Origin: Streptomyces atroolivaceus
Lineage (GTDB): Bacteria; Actinomycetota; Actinomycetes; Streptomycetales; Streptomycetaceae
Assembly (NCBI RefSeq): GCF_000717025.1
Contig: NZ_JNXG01000023.1
Location: 4,756-68,755 of the forward strand
Length of the DNA stretch: 64,000 bases
Direction: 5' to 3'
Under the pieces are notes generated by a model. It did not search any database and was not told where the DNA came from. It was given only the letters and a program-made list of their open reading frames with translations. This document shows, in pieces, positions 35,350-41,567 of this stretch. Each line of letters opens with the position of its first letter. Within the stretch, counting starts at the first letter, position 1. The position numbers and the translations under genes were made by a program.

Positions 35350-35862
35350 TCAGGAAGCGGGGACGAGTTCGGTGAGACTGCCGCCGAGCTGGGCCCGCAG
35401 CCGGGCCAGCGCCCGTGATGCCCGGGTCCGGACGGCGGACGAGCTGATGTTCATGGCGTCGGCCGTCTCCTCGATGCTGCGGTCCTCCCAGTAGCGGAGC
35501 ACCACCACGGCCCGGTCCTTCGGCGGTAGTTGTCCGAGTGCCTGGAGCAATGCCAGCCGCAGCAGCGGATCGCTTCCGGTGATGACCGGGACGTCGGGCA
35601 GTTCTGCCACCGGGCGTTCGTCCGAGGAACGTCTGCGCCGGTATGTGAGGAAGGTCCGTACAAGAACCGTCTGGGCGTACGCGGCAGGGTTGTCCACCTG
35701 GGAGATGCGCCCCCACTTCAGGTACATCCGCCCCAGCGTCTCCTGCACCAGATCCTCGGCGAGGTAGGTGTCACCGCTGGTGAGAAGGCATGCGGAACGA
35801 AAAAGATGCCCCGTGAGGCCGCCTGCGAACTCTATGAACCCGTCTTCGCGAGACTTTCTCAC
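35350..35862 (-). CDS. SigE-family ECF RNA polymerase sigma factor
   Basis: 170 residues, the usual size. Region 2 has LFRSACLLTSGDTYLAEDLV and QETLGRMYLKWGRI. Region 4 has ALGQLPPKDRAVVVLRYWED and the helix-turn-helix IEETADAMNISSSAVRTRAS. The GTG at 35862 fits the family start (VRKSREDGF) with AGGAGG upstream; the frame is open further. It redirects RNA polymerase to stress promoters and probably forms an operon with the membrane protein downstream. Confidence 0.93.
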   Translation of the reverse strand: MRKSREDGFIEFAGGLTGHLFRSACLLTSGDTYLAEDLVQETLGRMYLKWGRISQVDNPAAYAQTVLVRTFLTYRRRRSSDERPVAELPDVPVITGSDPLLRLALLQALGQLPPKDRAVVVLRYWEDRSIEETADAMNISSSAVRTRASRALARLRAQLGGSLTELVPAS

Positions 35863-36220
35863 GCTTACCCGTCCCTCCTGTTGCCCACCGCGGCCGAAGG
35901 CTCCGGCCCCCCACCTGACCGACGCGCCAGCCCTGGCGAAATGTTGCACCGGCCTTCTTCCGCGGTGGCGGCGGGGGGCGTTTCCACTCTCACGACGCGG
36001 ACGGGCGGTCTGCCTGGCCCATGCTGCGTCCATGACCACCTCGACCCCTGTCACGGCCACCGGCGTCGCACGTAGTCGCTCCGTATCGTGCCGCCTGAGA
36101 AGCGTCGGACCCGCAGACGGAGGACTGACTGCTCTCGGATCACTCCCGGCAGGCGGACCCGAGCGCCGTCGTCACTCGACGTGCCCCTTCGACGGATAGG
36201 GAGCCAGACCCGGCTCCTGC
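35863..36220. promoter_or_regulatory. Divergent intergenic region
   Basis: About 360 bases between the sigma-factor gene (-) and the MerR gene (+). Both promoters must lie here. No confident promoter motif was identified. Confidence 0.4.
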
Positions 36221-37135
36221 ATGGACAAAGCCCCATGCCCGGTGCAGTCGGAGATCAAGACCATTCGGTTCTACTCCGATCGCGGAATCGTCGTGCCGAC
36301 GGACCGCAGCCCGGCCGGCTACCGCCTCTACAACGACGACACCGTTGCACGCCTGCAACTCGTGCGCACTCTGCGGGAGCTGGGGCTGGACCTACCCACG
36401 ATCCGCAGGGTCGTGGACCGCGAGCTCTCGCTGCCCGAGGTCGCGGCAGCGCACGCCGAAGCACTGGCAGTGCAGATCCACGTCCTGCGCCGGCGGCGCG
36501 CGGTGCTGACGGCTGTGGCCGAGCGTGGGTCCACACCTGCCGAGACGGAGCTGATGCACAGGCTGGCCCAGCTCTCCGAGGAGCAACGCCGACATCTGAT
36601 CGGCGATTTCCTCGACGTCGTCTTCGGCGGTATGGACGCCGCCCCTGCCTTCGCGGGGGTCACACGGTCGATGACACCCGAGCTGCCCGACAACCCGGAG
36701 GCGGAGCAGGTTCAGGCGTGGGTGGAGTTGGCCGAACTGTCTCTGGACCCGGATTTCCGCGCCCTCGTGCGGCGGATGGCCGAGTACCAGGCAGCTGAGC
36801 AGGCCCGAAGCGACACCATGGGCCCGCGTCGCGACATTGCCGCAGCCGTCCGGGACCATGTCGGCCCGGCTTCGGCCGCCGGAATCGCCCCGGACTCATC
36901 CCTGGCCGATCCGATCGTCGTGGCGTTCACGGCGCAGTACGCGCACCTTCTCGCCGAACCCGACGACGCTGCCCTTCGCCGTCGGCTGGCGACTCGACTG
37001 GAGAGCGTGAACGACGCCCGCTGGGAGCGCTACGTCCAGCTGCTTGCTGTGGTCAACGGCTGGCCTGCCCCGGAGAGACTGGCTCCAGTGCTCGACTGGG
37101 CCGTCCAGGCTCTGCGCGTGCGGACACAGCGATGA
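36221..37135 (+). CDS. MerR-family regulator with an atypical N-terminus
   Basis: 304 residues. IKTIRFYSDRGIVVPTDRSP and AGYRLYNDDTVARLQLVRTL are the second HTH helix and wing of a MerR protein, followed by a dimer helix and a 180-residue C-terminal domain. The normal opening of about 15 residues (RIGELARRTGVS-type first helix) is absent; instead the protein starts MDKAPCPVQSE. No other frame upstream supplies the missing helix. Either the gene was rearranged at its 5' end or the fold tolerates this; DNA binding may be impaired. Confidence 0.75.
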   Translation: MDKAPCPVQSEIKTIRFYSDRGIVVPTDRSPAGYRLYNDDTVARLQLVRTLRELGLDLPTIRRVVDRELSLPEVAAAHAEALAVQIHVLRRRRAVLTAVAERGSTPAETELMHRLAQLSEEQRRHLIGDFLDVVFGGMDAAPAFAGVTRSMTPELPDNPEAEQVQAWVELAELSLDPDFRALVRRMAEYQAAEQARSDTMGPRRDIAAAVRDHVGPASAAGIAPDSSLADPIVVAFTAQYAHLLAEPDDAALRRRLATRLESVNDARWERYVQLLAVVNGWPAPERLAPVLDWAVQALRVRTQR

Positions 37136-37587: not shown

Positions 37588-38121
37588 TCAGCTCGTCGGG
37601 TTGCTTACCAGGCGGTCGCCCACGATGCCCGCCAGGTCGGGACGGTAGTACTCCTTGATGGCCTCGGCCCAGGCCGGCACCGCAACCTGGTCCGTGGCTG
37701 TCGGCTCCAGGCTGTCGAACAGAGCGTGGATGTTAGGAAGCGCGAAGCCGATGGCGGTCATGACCTCCGCGAAGACCGGTCGCGCGATCAGCCCGTCCCC
37801 GTCCGGATCCGCCAGCGCCGTGAGTGCCTCGGCGAACTCCCCGATCGCCTCGTCGAACCGTTCCGGCGCGAGCACGACCGCCTGGAACTCATCGAAATCG
37901 ACCCTGCCGTCACGGTTGGTGTCCAGTTCTTCGGCGAGGGCCCCCCAGAAGGCCCGGAAACCACTCAAGGCCGCGCTTTGCCTCGCCTGGGCTGCCTCGG
38001 GCACCGCCGCGATGACGCGGTTGGCCATCAGTTCGAAATCGTCGGCGTCGATGAATCCATTGCCGTCTGCGTCGAACAGGGTGAACACCAATCGAACCCG
38101 GTCGACCGCTTCTGTACGCAT
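37588..38121 (-). CDS. EF-hand calcium-binding protein
   Basis: 177 residues. EF loop 1 is DADGNGFIDADD (residues 17-28) and loop 2 is DTNRDGRVDFDE (67-78); both have full Asp/Asn/Glu ligand sets. Loop 3 (DPDGDGLIARPV, 105-116) lacks the final Glu, and a fourth site is degenerate. This layout matches calerythrin-type sarcoplasmic calcium-binding proteins found in Streptomyces, which buffer calcium or affect spore formation. It has a good ATG and stands alone. Confidence 0.9.
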   Translation of the reverse strand: MRTEAVDRVRLVFTLFDADGNGFIDADDFELMANRVIAAVPEAAQARQSAALSGFRAFWGALAEELDTNRDGRVDFDEFQAVVLAPERFDEAIGEFAEALTALADPDGDGLIARPVFAEVMTAIGFALPNIHALFDSLEPTATDQVAVPAWAEAIKEYYRPDLAGIVGDRLVSNPTS

Positions 38122-38616: not shown

Positions 38617-38630
38617 ATGCATTCATGCAT
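38617..38630 (+). promoter_or_regulatory. Palindromic candidate operator
   Basis: ATGCATTCATGCAT: two ATGCAT palindromes separated by two bases, 40 bases upstream of the first gene of the unknown pair. A candidate regulator site only. Confidence 0.35.
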
Positions 38631-38670
38631 CGATTCTTGACAGTAGTGGAAAGATCAGAGCGGAGTGGCC

Positions 38671-40326
38671 ATGCCCGACCACGCGCACCTGCGGCGGGCT
38701 ACCGCCTGGATGAGGCGAAGCGCCGACGTCGACGCCACCCGCTCCTCGGCTGCCCTGGACGACACGTCCGGCCACGCCCTGTTGGGGCTTGAAGGCGCCG
38801 ACGACGACTTCGGTCCCGGTTCCACCGCGCTGGAGCCGGGACGGCTGTACCGCAGGGTCAGCGGCACGGATGACCACGCGCGGCCCGTCAGCGACGAGGA
38901 ACTGGCGGGGTTGGGAGATCCGATGGCGGTCGAGTTCTTCCGGGTGGGCACGTTTCCGACAACGGTGCAGGAACTGCTGTCCAATCTTCCCGCGACGGCC
39001 GCCGCCTCACGCAAGGTGTATCTGGTCAGCGAGGCCGGGCAGATTCCGCCGGGCGCCATCGGCGAGCGCGACATGCGGTTCGCGATCACGGCCGCCGTGG
39101 GAGGCAGCCAAGTCGACCTTCTGATCAGCGCCCAGGCCGGCGGCGACCCCAAGCAGGGATTCCTTCAGGTCGCGGCGTGGGATCCCGGAGAAAAGGTTTT
39201 CAACTTCTATGCGCGGTTCGAATCGAGCTGGGTATGGGCGGGCAACTCCTGGCACGCGCTGGAGCCGGACTCACGGGGAAAGGGCTGCTTCGACAGCCAC
39301 GTCAACGGCAGCGTTGTGATGAAGGAGCTGCGGATTCCCTGGATCAACTGGCAATCCGAGCGGGCCACGATCCGGCTCGCCGAGGACGACCCGCTGCGCC
39401 ATGACCCGCTGTTCCAGCAGGTGACCGGAGCTCAGCGGCTGGAACTGACCGTCAGGTCCCTCATCACCCGGTGGACAGCGGCCCGTCTGACCGCGATCAC
39501 CGCGAACGGCGTTGTGAACCACCCCGACCGGCTGCTGCGTCACCTGTTCACCAGCACCACGATCAATCTCGCCAGCACCGACAGACAAAGCAGCAACATC
39601 ACGGCGGACAGTCCCGACCTGACGCTGCCCACAGGCTTTTGGTTGAATCAGGACGTCCTGTTCGACGACCTTCGCCTGTCCACACAGGCCGCCCCGCCCA
39701 GGGCACCGGCCACACGCTATCTGGCCGGCTTGAGCCGATTCGGTTTCCACCTGGAGGAGAAGCACAGCGGTTTCTCCCAGCCAGGCGACACGTTCTTCGC
39801 CTTCGTGGTTCCCGAGGCCGCCCACGAGGACAACGAGGTGGTCCGTCAGGCGGTCCGTACCGGGCTCATCTCGGCCAAGTTCGCCGCGTGCGTGCTGATG
39901 GTGGACTTCCCCAACCCGGTCTGCAGTCCTGCCCGCAGTCACCTTATGCAGTACGTGCCGACCATGCCGACCAAGACGGTGAAGTTGTGTGACAAAGTCG
40001 CCAAGGCCATCTTGGACGCCGTGCGAGCGAAAGACCTGCCCGCCGACAGTCCCGAAGGCCGCTTCGCCGCGTGCTGGCAGGAACCTGACGACGCCTGGCG
40101 GACGGTGTTCGGACAGCGGGTGGACGCCTATCTGCGTGCGGTCACGCAACAGATCCAGACCGCATCCGGATTCGACGACTACGTCCGTCTGGCCGAGTTC
40201 CGCCGTCGGCAGTTCCGCCTCATGAAATTGAATGAGTTCGAGCTCACCCTGCCGGTCACCAACATTTCCAGCAGTGCCCCACCGCTGGCGATGCGCGAGG
40301 ACGCCACCGTCGCAGAGCTCAGCTGA
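38671..40326 (+). CDS. Large protein of unknown family (first gene of a two-gene unit)
   Basis: 551 residues from ATG 38671, with GGAG five bases upstream. There is no signal peptide or membrane helix, so it should be cytoplasmic. Features: a charged N-terminus; a beta-rich block near 110-200 with LLISAQAGGDPKQGFLQVAA, FNFYARFESSWVWAGNSWHA and CFDSHVNGSVVMKELRIPW; and a middle with LTGFW-type loops. A C-terminal half follows with FFAFVVPEAAHEDNEVVRQA and VLMVDFPNPVCSPARSHLMQ, ending NEFELTLPVTNISS. Codon use is normal for Streptomyces, so it looks functional. I do not recognise the family. The second gene follows after 92 bases. Confidence 0.75.
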   Translation: MPDHAHLRRATAWMRRSADVDATRSSAALDDTSGHALLGLEGADDDFGPGSTALEPGRLYRRVSGTDDHARPVSDEELAGLGDPMAVEFFRVGTFPTTVQELLSNLPATAAASRKVYLVSEAGQIPPGAIGERDMRFAITAAVGGSQVDLLISAQAGGDPKQGFLQVAAWDPGEKVFNFYARFESSWVWAGNSWHALEPDSRGKGCFDSHVNGSVVMKELRIPWINWQSERATIRLAEDDPLRHDPLFQQVTGAQRLELTVRSLITRWTAARLTAITANGVVNHPDRLLRHLFTSTTINLASTDRQSSNITADSPDLTLPTGFWLNQDVLFDDLRLSTQAAPPRAPATRYLAGLSRFGFHLEEKHSGFSQPGDTFFAFVVPEAAHEDNEVVRQAVRTGLISAKFAACVLMVDFPNPVCSPARSHLMQYVPTMPTKTVKLCDKVAKAILDAVRAKDLPADSPEGRFAACWQEPDDAWRTVFGQRVDAYLRAVTQQIQTASGFDDYVRLAEFRRRQFRLMKLNEFELTLPVTNISSSAPPLAMREDATVAELS

Positions 40327-40418
40327 AGCCGCCCTCACCAGCCGGCACGGCATCACCTTCCGCGGCGCTGCCGACCGCTGCGTTCCGCCCCTCCGCCCTC
40401 ACGAGCAAGGACTACGTC

Positions 40419-41567
40419 ATGCCCACACTGGATGCCTACGCACCTCCCGGCAACCTCGACGATCTGGACGACTTCGGCCGCAAGGCATGGAACACGTTCA
40501 TCTCCAACACGGTCGACGAGGCCATTCAGGGCCCCGATCCCCAACAGGTACTGAACGACAGCCCAAGACTGCAGTTCTACAACCTGACCAGGACGAACAC
40601 GGACACGGATGTCCGGCATGCCCCTATCAAATGGACGGCGTTCCCTCGCGTCATCAAGATCACCTCCATTTCGGACCTCCAGCGATGGCAACGTGCCGAC
40701 GCCAGCCGTGACGTCCAGGACGAGTACTGCGAGTGGAGCGTCATCCGTGATGGCGCAGGAAAGATCACCCAGGTCACGTTCACCAGTGAAGGCCCCGAGT
40801 ATTGGGAGATTCTGGCGCAGACGAACCCGGGCAAGGTGCTCGAGCTCTACCAGAAATTCATCAGTCCGGACGCGCGCAAGGAGGACTTGTTCTCACCCAG
40901 CGGCAGATACGAGCCGCGCAACAAGTGGAACAACTCCACGAGCCACGGCGCCATGCACTTGATTCAGCCGAACAACACCCTGGGTGCAGAGATCGAATTG
41001 GCTGCAGCAGCCACCATCAGGCGTGTCATCAACGGCCAGGAGCTGACCACTGAGCAGGAGTTGATCGCCTGCAGCAAGTACGGCGCCCCCGAGCGCAACA
41101 GCGATCCGCATATCGGCGCAGGGGTCAACGCCCTGGCCCGCCAGAAGGCCGACATCAGCCTCGCCGACCCAGTTGGCCTGTACTTCGACGACTTGTCGAC
41201 GGATGGCTGGGAGACCCCGGACGGCTCCGACCCAAAGAGCTATTGGACCTATCTGAGAGGCGACTCGGAACACCGTGTCCGCGCCGTGTACGAAGTGCCC
41301 CCGGACAAGGGATTTGGCGTCGGGGACATCACCATCGGCGGGAGGACCATCGAGTTCGGCGCCCAGATCGCGGATTTCATCACCATCAGGCTCACCGGCA
41401 TCGCTTGCCGCTTCGGCGACTCCACCGTCCCGCCGCAGATCGCATGCAAGGAATTCTCCGCTGTCGACATGCGGGAAGAGAGCTTCAACGCAGCCGCGTT
41501 CTCCTCCTCCGGTCGCTTCCTGGATCCCCGTCCCACCCTCTCTTACCGCTCTTCCCGCGTCAGTTGA
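40419..41567 (+). CDS. Protein of unknown family (second gene of a two-gene unit)
   Basis: 382 residues with AAGGA upstream of the ATG. It is soluble and has no export signal. Striking segments that look conserved are DEYCEWSVIRD, FTSEGPEYWEIL, RNKWNNSTSHGAMHLIQ, NSDPHIGAGVNALARQKADI and VRAVYEVPPDKGFGVGDITI. The His in SHGAMH, the DPH unit and the Cys in EYCEW are candidate catalytic or metal-binding residues. I have a vague memory of similar uncharacterised proteins in other soil bacteria but no family name. It is probably cotranscribed with the gene before it, forming a two-protein system or a substrate-channelling pair. Confidence 0.75.
   Translation: MPTLDAYAPPGNLDDLDDFGRKAWNTFISNTVDEAIQGPDPQQVLNDSPRLQFYNLTRTNTDTDVRHAPIKWTAFPRVIKITSISDLQRWQRADASRDVQDEYCEWSVIRDGAGKITQVTFTSEGPEYWEILAQTNPGKVLELYQKFISPDARKEDLFSPSGRYEPRNKWNNSTSHGAMHLIQPNNTLGAEIELAAAATIRRVINGQELTTEQELIACSKYGAPERNSDPHIGAGVNALARQKADISLADPVGLYFDDLSTDGWETPDGSDPKSYWTYLRGDSEHRVRAVYEVPPDKGFGVGDITIGGRTIEFGAQIADFITIRLTGIACRFGDSTVPPQIACKEFSAVDMREESFNAAAFSSSGRFLDPRPTLSYRSSRVS

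Follow-up and report, generated by a model that had tools for sequence, protein, structure and literature searches.

Two adjacent genes in a 64,000-nucleotide stretch of the Streptomyces atroolivaceus genome—the window, by which the whole stretch of DNA analysed is meant—raise the question of what a pair of proteins without an assigned family does and whether the two belong together. The P1 gene (38671..40326, plus strand) encodes 551 amino acids and is proposed here to specify a haem protein that resides in the cytosol and belongs to an undescribed family. The P2 gene (40419..41567, plus strand) encodes its partner protein of 382 amino acids, whose relatives are tagged PF26676.1. Both genes are intact, co-oriented, and separated by 92 bases, and each is preceded by a likely ribosome-binding site as judged by sequence inspection: GGAG at 38662..38665 for P1 and AAGGA at 40407..40411 for P2, both on the plus strand. 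This arrangement is the one that the initial annotation had described. Alternatively, translation of P1 might begin at a GTG that lies 6 bases further upstream. The codon bias is normal, as had been claimed, with GC fractions at codon positions 1/2/3 of 0.65/0.49/0.84 for P1 and 0.57/0.47/0.81 for P2. Likewise, the reported lack of an export signal agrees with the absence of an N-terminal hydrophobic segment from both proteins as judged by hydropathy, the maximal N-terminal value of P1 on this measure being 0.49. The segments that had looked conserved, among them EYCEW and SDPHIGAG of P2, were found inside conserved stretches. Compared with four Streptomyces-type relatives, dN/dS amounts to 0.22–0.27 for P1 and 0.16–0.20 for P2, and hence both genes are maintained by purifying selection. 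Each is present in a single copy in the 8.2 Mb source genome.

A palindromic stretch, ATGCATTCATGCAT, precedes the pair at 38617..38630, as located by sequence match, and had been put forward as a candidate operator. The stretch exists, but among five relatives aligned upstream of P1 it recurs in one only (L004, with one mismatch) and is absent from the other four; because of this poor conservation, an operator role is unsupported and was dropped. Just upstream of the pair, an EF-hand protein is encoded at 37588–38121 on the minus strand. The neighbour of this gene is a MerR regulator (36221–37135), and a sigma-70-type factor (35350–36060) lies on the other strand.

Searches of family collections place neither protein directly. 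No family was found for P1 or P2 in a Pfam scan with a model set lacking PF26676, and the only NCBIfam match was one of 13 bits for P2, far under its cut-off. The defence and phage collections were searched with P0001 and P0121, near-identical database copies of the window P1 and P2: PADLOC-DB 2.0.0 (5027 models) gave no family for these two or for P0033, P0157, and P0216, and PHROGs gave nothing for P0001 and P0121. In the protein database, P2 has 2,987 relatives at E ≤ 0.001, of which 120, among the matches listed, carry the tag PF26676.1. The tag gives no function, and PF26676 is not named in the literature searched. The claim that the pair has no recognisable family therefore stands for Pfam, NCBIfam, PADLOC, and PHROGs but not for the relatives of P2; the match to a described family that the initial annotation had named as counter-evidence exists in the form of this tag, yet without any function. 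Neither the P1–P2 pair nor the partner rule set out below is described in the literature searched, most subscription literature and preprints lying outside its scope.

Structure prediction of each protein alone, a check proposed at the outset, yields confident single-chain folds for both P1 and P2, neither of which is like a solved structure. For P1, the PDB contains no significant fold match and a PDB sequence search returned nothing. Against a library of viral structures, the best match of P2 has an E-value of 0.29. A haem fold was not among the matches of the fold searches, which excludes nothing. Two matches of P2 to ribosomal L18 among the PDB sequences (E 0.26) are meaningless. One source names P0066 a phage portal; this identity was rejected for P1 with Foldseek E-values of 0.42–0.9 at an rmsd of about 30–34 Å.

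P1 and P2 form one unit that is carried sporadically. Of 246 Streptomyces genomes, 8 carry P1; all of these also carry P2, as does a ninth with a weak, different P2. Of 346 Actinomycetota genomes, the same 4 hold both. The source genome is counted in both scans; the distinct genomes with P1 number 11, and P2 is present in 11/11. This contradicts the notion that the homologues might never occur together, while P2 relatives without P1 do exist. With the centre genome included in each case, the Nostoc order has P2 in 5 of 148 genomes and the Bradyrhizobium order in 2 of 239. The P1 loci span nine named phyla, some of them represented by metagenome bins. Among plasmid records, 25 match P2 and 13 match P1; of the 12 plasmids with P2 but without P1, eight were fetched—three before and five after the partner rule was seen—and four were left out. 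No match to P2 was found in 50,697 phage records. In some cases, the two proteins occur in a single chain: P0308 and P0314 are exported fusions of a CxxCH-containing P1 with P2, and further single-chain forms are an open reading frame of L031 and one annotated gene on an Azospirillum plasmid that spans the matches to P1 and P2. A survey of gene neighbourhoods, again a check that had been suggested, places P1 beside P2 in 74 of 113 P2-family genes. Together, co-occurrence, adjacency, fusions, and sparse distribution give good support to the earlier view of an undescribed accessory module of two proteins. One P1 match (G269:C64:31212-32768) contains a single in-frame TAA.

What is new here is a partner rule for P2-family genes, which have three alternative neighbours. 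The tally was made by tblastn on 104 loci from genomes, plasmids, and further genomes, all found through P2, and comprises 113 P2-family genes of at least 700 bases each and without identical DNA. On the same strand, 110 of these adjoin P1 (74), a DyP-type haem peroxidase (25), or a third protein, P3 (11). P1 lies upstream of P2 in 73 cases and downstream in 1, and DyP (25) and P3 (11) always lie downstream. The DyP and P3 assignments were each given a non-self check; that of L043 relies on a match of 31 residues at the edge of a contig. As for the remaining genes, two (L062 and L073) are truncated where their contigs end, and the third (L068) has a DyP only as a divergent upstream neighbour, the plus-strand gene after its P2 not being a DyP by the non-self check. 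P1 without an adjacent P2 was found in none of the 104 loci, which had themselves been found via P2; free of this bias are the genome scans given earlier. Once the rule had been noticed, five plasmid loci were fetched, four with DyP and one with P3. All fit it, and since the DyP and P3 sets had been built from earlier loci, these five provide the cleaner test. DyP domains are few (76 in 21 relatives, 1–8 per genome), so that their adjacency to P2 is unexpected by chance. A P2 tree of 78 rows, from which 10 P2 genes without a partner assigned at that time and loci with an uncalled P2 were excluded, can be explained by three partner changes, compared with a shuffled mean of 21.7. The odd Streptomyces P2 (L131) is of the DyP type.

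Two of the DyP loci have further peculiarities. At L068:3809-8662, the divergent DyP upstream of the P2-family gene is Tat-like, and the protein downstream shares the leader of this DyP but not its body, as judged by non-self matches. At L132:7331-10855, the DyP partner (1174 amino acids) of the P2-family protein carries leucine-rich repeats.

Sequence motifs in all three partners of P2 suggest a link to haem. A set of 25 DyP sequences, of which at least four are not adjacent to P2 and one later proved to be no DyP, retains the conserved His, Asp-Gly, and Arg columns in 23–24 of its 25 members; we take these to be the haem ligand and the catalytic residues. P3 features CxxCH, the c-type haem motif, in 11/11 sequences, one of them not adjacent to P2, and an N-terminal hydrophobic segment in 8 of the 11. 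In the P1 family, exported members from cyanobacteria, myxobacteria, and Chloroflexota carry CFDCH or CFRCH where the window protein has CFDSH (codons 206–210; 39286..39300, plus strand). The His of this motif, His210, is retained in the window protein and in 268/268 rows with a residue there, three rows of the 271-row alignment being gapped; CxxCH is present in 87 rows, exactly once in each. A motif script was applied to 270 P1 sequences (database matches and locus reads, including some proteins twice), of which 255 were read and 15 remained unread. CxxCH was found in 85/255, with a hydrophobic N-terminus in 74 of the 85; the other 11 have, by eye, mostly a late start or a lipobox-like or weak signal. 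CFDSH was found in 152/255 and no Cys in 18/255, and a hydrophobic N-terminus occurs in none of either class.

Covalent haem c is formed outside the cytosol. It forms on the cysteines of CxxCH, according to the accessible part of PMC3601427, and the joint distribution of motif and export is therefore as expected of a haem site. In a P1 tree of 96 of the 271 sequences, selected by thinning at 72% identity and by removal of short rows and of those lacking His210, the CxxCH rows fall essentially into a single clade (44/45), so that the match between export and CxxCH amounts to one or two events rather than dozens. The exception, P0321, is the most distant P1 relative, features a lipobox-like start and CAGCH, and stands apart on a very long branch. 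In the window P1, which lacks CxxCH, haem binding would hinge on one invariant His. As it lacks two hallmarks of c-type cytochromes, CxxCH and an export signal, it is not classed as one; it may nevertheless work like a haem protein. The earlier designation of the pair as an enzyme remains likely and is sharpened by the other two partner families, which count as haem proteins through their motif or family, and by the c-type haem site of exported P1 relatives. Position 373 of P1 varies in step with position 209: nearly all rows that lack CxxCH have Asp at 373, and 85% of the CxxCH rows have Ser. By eye, the P1 segment VAAW..NYY..WVWAG looks like KAAW..GLH..W.WATFEH of P3. A remote homology of P1 to DyP or P3 was rejected, as profile comparison detected no kinship among P1, P3, and DyP.

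P2 itself features a core that is constant across partners. In 78 classed rows—45 with cytosolic P1, 12 with exported P1, 13 with DyP, and 8 with P3, nine unclassed rows being excluded—W72, E102, Y103, W106, E124, Y128, N171, N186, R226, S228, and D229 are identical throughout. The conserved motif QDEYCEW (codons 100–106; 40716..40736, plus strand) includes, in addition, Q100, D101, and E105, each conserved in 75–77 of the 78 rows, and C104 in 73. This cysteine is found in 65/65 rows with P1 or P3 as partner versus 8/13 with DyP. Judged by these residues, the invariant core is suggestive of a site for catalysis or for a cofactor. Location poses the chief puzzle: a single P2 read of 107 exceeds the hydropathy threshold, probably by way of a wrong start, and a P2 that is mostly signal-less beside exported P1 or P3 is awkward for a complex. 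The exported fusions, on the other hand, carry P2 along with P1. At L055, L056, L060, L064, L066, L077, and L126, P1 looks exported or lipid-anchored, and the adjacent P2 has no recognisable signal; the P2 of L075 has a Tat-like N-terminus by eye. P1 carries a short conserved N-terminal motif (38671–38800 in the window) in a tail predicted at low confidence, of the RRxTAW type in 96 of 120 relatives, among the matches listed, and FPTRxYPYR in many proteobacterial relatives. It may serve as a docking or targeting tag. A sorting motif shared within the locus was rejected, as the P1 motifs do not recur convincingly in neighbouring genes.

The reading preferred here, to which we assign a probability of roughly 0.58 as a whole, is that P1–P2 is a cytosolic two-protein haem oxidoreductase. 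It starts from what was observed: that the two genes pair, that they are inherited together, that P2 follows the partner rule, and how the CxxCH/His motif is distributed. P1 and P2 would act as the two subunits of an oxidoreductase centred on a haem protein, or as successive partners in it, the contact between them being a part that we infer. Exported P1-family members are predicted mono-haem c-type proteins; in the cytosolic window P1, where one of the two haem-attaching cysteines is missing, haem would most likely be bound noncovalently via His210. P2 would be the constant component, with the same conserved core beside P1, a DyP peroxidase, or P3. Most likely, the haem partner would activate peroxide—or shuttle electrons—and P2 would supply, or be, the site of the oxidised substrate. 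More tentatively, and with odds that we place below even, P2 might be a redox partner of no recognised fold for any supplied haem protein (DyP, P3, or P1). P1 might then constitute a new haem-protein family that switches between an exported form with covalent haem c and a cytosolic form with noncovalent haem by loss or gain of thioether cysteines, with the axial His kept, and the protein-radical or peroxide chemistry of the pair might be unlike that of described two-component enzymes. Two uncharacterised proteins are turned into a testable redox hypothesis with a bearing on all relatives of P2 and on P1 loci in nine phyla. Three haem-associated proteins, among which no kinship could be detected, are connected through one constant partner, and the P1 family provides a natural series of haem sites whose attachment is covalent or not depending on the cell compartment.

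Three other explanations were weighed against the two-protein haem oxidoreductase. It is unlikely, in our view, that P1–P2 is the sensor or adaptor core of a biological-conflict system in which nearby or fused proteases and nucleases act as effectors and the haem link is ancestral and was lost in the cytosolic branch. The idea draws on the surroundings of the pair: subtilase, trypsin, caspase, M4, and PLD proteins at some P1–P2 loci; P2 fused to PLD domains in L028 and in the L031 open reading frame, with L081 annotated as PLD-like; one 1390-residue reading frame (L027:9959-14131) that combines P2 with Trypsin_2, EEP, and Endonuclease_NS domains; EAD1 near some loci (2/76); and the Rhizobium plasmid pR132503 (L085), where the pair lies amid S1, caspase, S53, S8, PLD, and AAA genes as well as insertion-sequence genes. 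At other loci, the neighbours include an animal-type haem peroxidase, a GMC oxidoreductase, LodA, tyrosinase, or galactose-oxidase-like enzymes. For a quantitative comparison, 224 neighbouring proteins were thinned to 192, of which 143 were scanned, short or doubtful calls being left out, together with six added by hand (from L030, L032, and four from L082, one of these being a listed gene with another start); the distal control consisted of 80 of 388 proteins drawn at random with at most two per locus. Subtilases make up 8/149 of the proximal proteins, at least one of the eight having been added by hand, versus 3/80 of the distal ones. This is no clear enrichment, and hence the interpretation is not based on neighbours, and the protease and nuclease neighbourhood was discarded as the main clue. 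Such effectors are also missing from the six window neighbours scanned, which comprise one sigma factor, one MerR regulator, one EF-hand protein, and three others that match no family. A conflict system would, moreover, leave the DyP and P3 partnerships unexplained. With no PADLOC match, no P2 in the phage records, and subtilases not clearly commoner near the pair, the initial label of a defence-like module finds no support, although a role in defence is conceivable.

The other two explanations keep the haem link and assign P2 a different part. In one, which we likewise hold to be improbable, P2 is the substrate, and the haem partner oxidises its invariant Tyr, Trp, or Cys residues to a protein-derived cofactor. 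MauG makes such a cofactor in its quinoprotein, and W72, Y103, W106, and Y128 are identical in 78/78 rows with any partner. The same activity is described for LodB in the accessible text of PMC4417212, and genes for LodA and radical-SAM proteins are present at some P1–P2 or P2–DyP loci. There is, however, no direct sign of a modified residue, and the uneven retention of C104, complete beside P1 and P3 but reduced beside DyP, counts against this reading. In the other, the least probable of the three, P2 acts as a chaperone or maturation factor, loading or protecting haem proteins ahead of their use or export while staying outside the active enzyme. This would suit a P2 that is mostly signal-less where P1 and P3 are exported, as well as partners that are unrelated by profile comparison; yet the exported P1–P2 fusions take P2 along, and the large invariant core would fit a catalytic or cofactor site better. 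No chaperone or maturation factor of this kind is known to be required by DyP peroxidases.

The pair resembles several known systems in part. With c-type cytochromes, it shares the single CxxCH of exported P1 relatives and of P3 and the invariance of His210, but the window P1 differs by CFDSH and by the lack of a signal by hydropathy, of a Pfam match, and of a significant PDB fold match. DyP-type peroxidases (PF20628/PF21105) occupy the partner slot of P2 in 25/113 genes, plus the one divergent case; hhalign, however, detects no likeness of the P1 profile to theirs (probability 0.1%), and DyP lies downstream of P2, whereas P1 lies upstream. With the NucA/trypsin 'System 3', as covered in the accessible part of Kaur et al. 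2020 (PMC7159879), the family shares the P2–trypsin–Endonuclease_NS fusion of L027 and EAD1 near some loci, but neither trypsin nor NucA is among the six scanned window neighbours. LodA/LodB, in the available portion of PMC4417212, is likewise a two-gene oxidative module, and LodA is present at some P1–P2 or P2–DyP loci; P1 and P2, in contrast, match no LodA or other Pfam or NCBIfam model above the cut-off. On a Bradyrhizobium plasmid (L082), P1–P2, P3, DyP, LodA with its adjoining flavoprotein, a radical SAM protein, and a ferritin-like protein are found in one locus.
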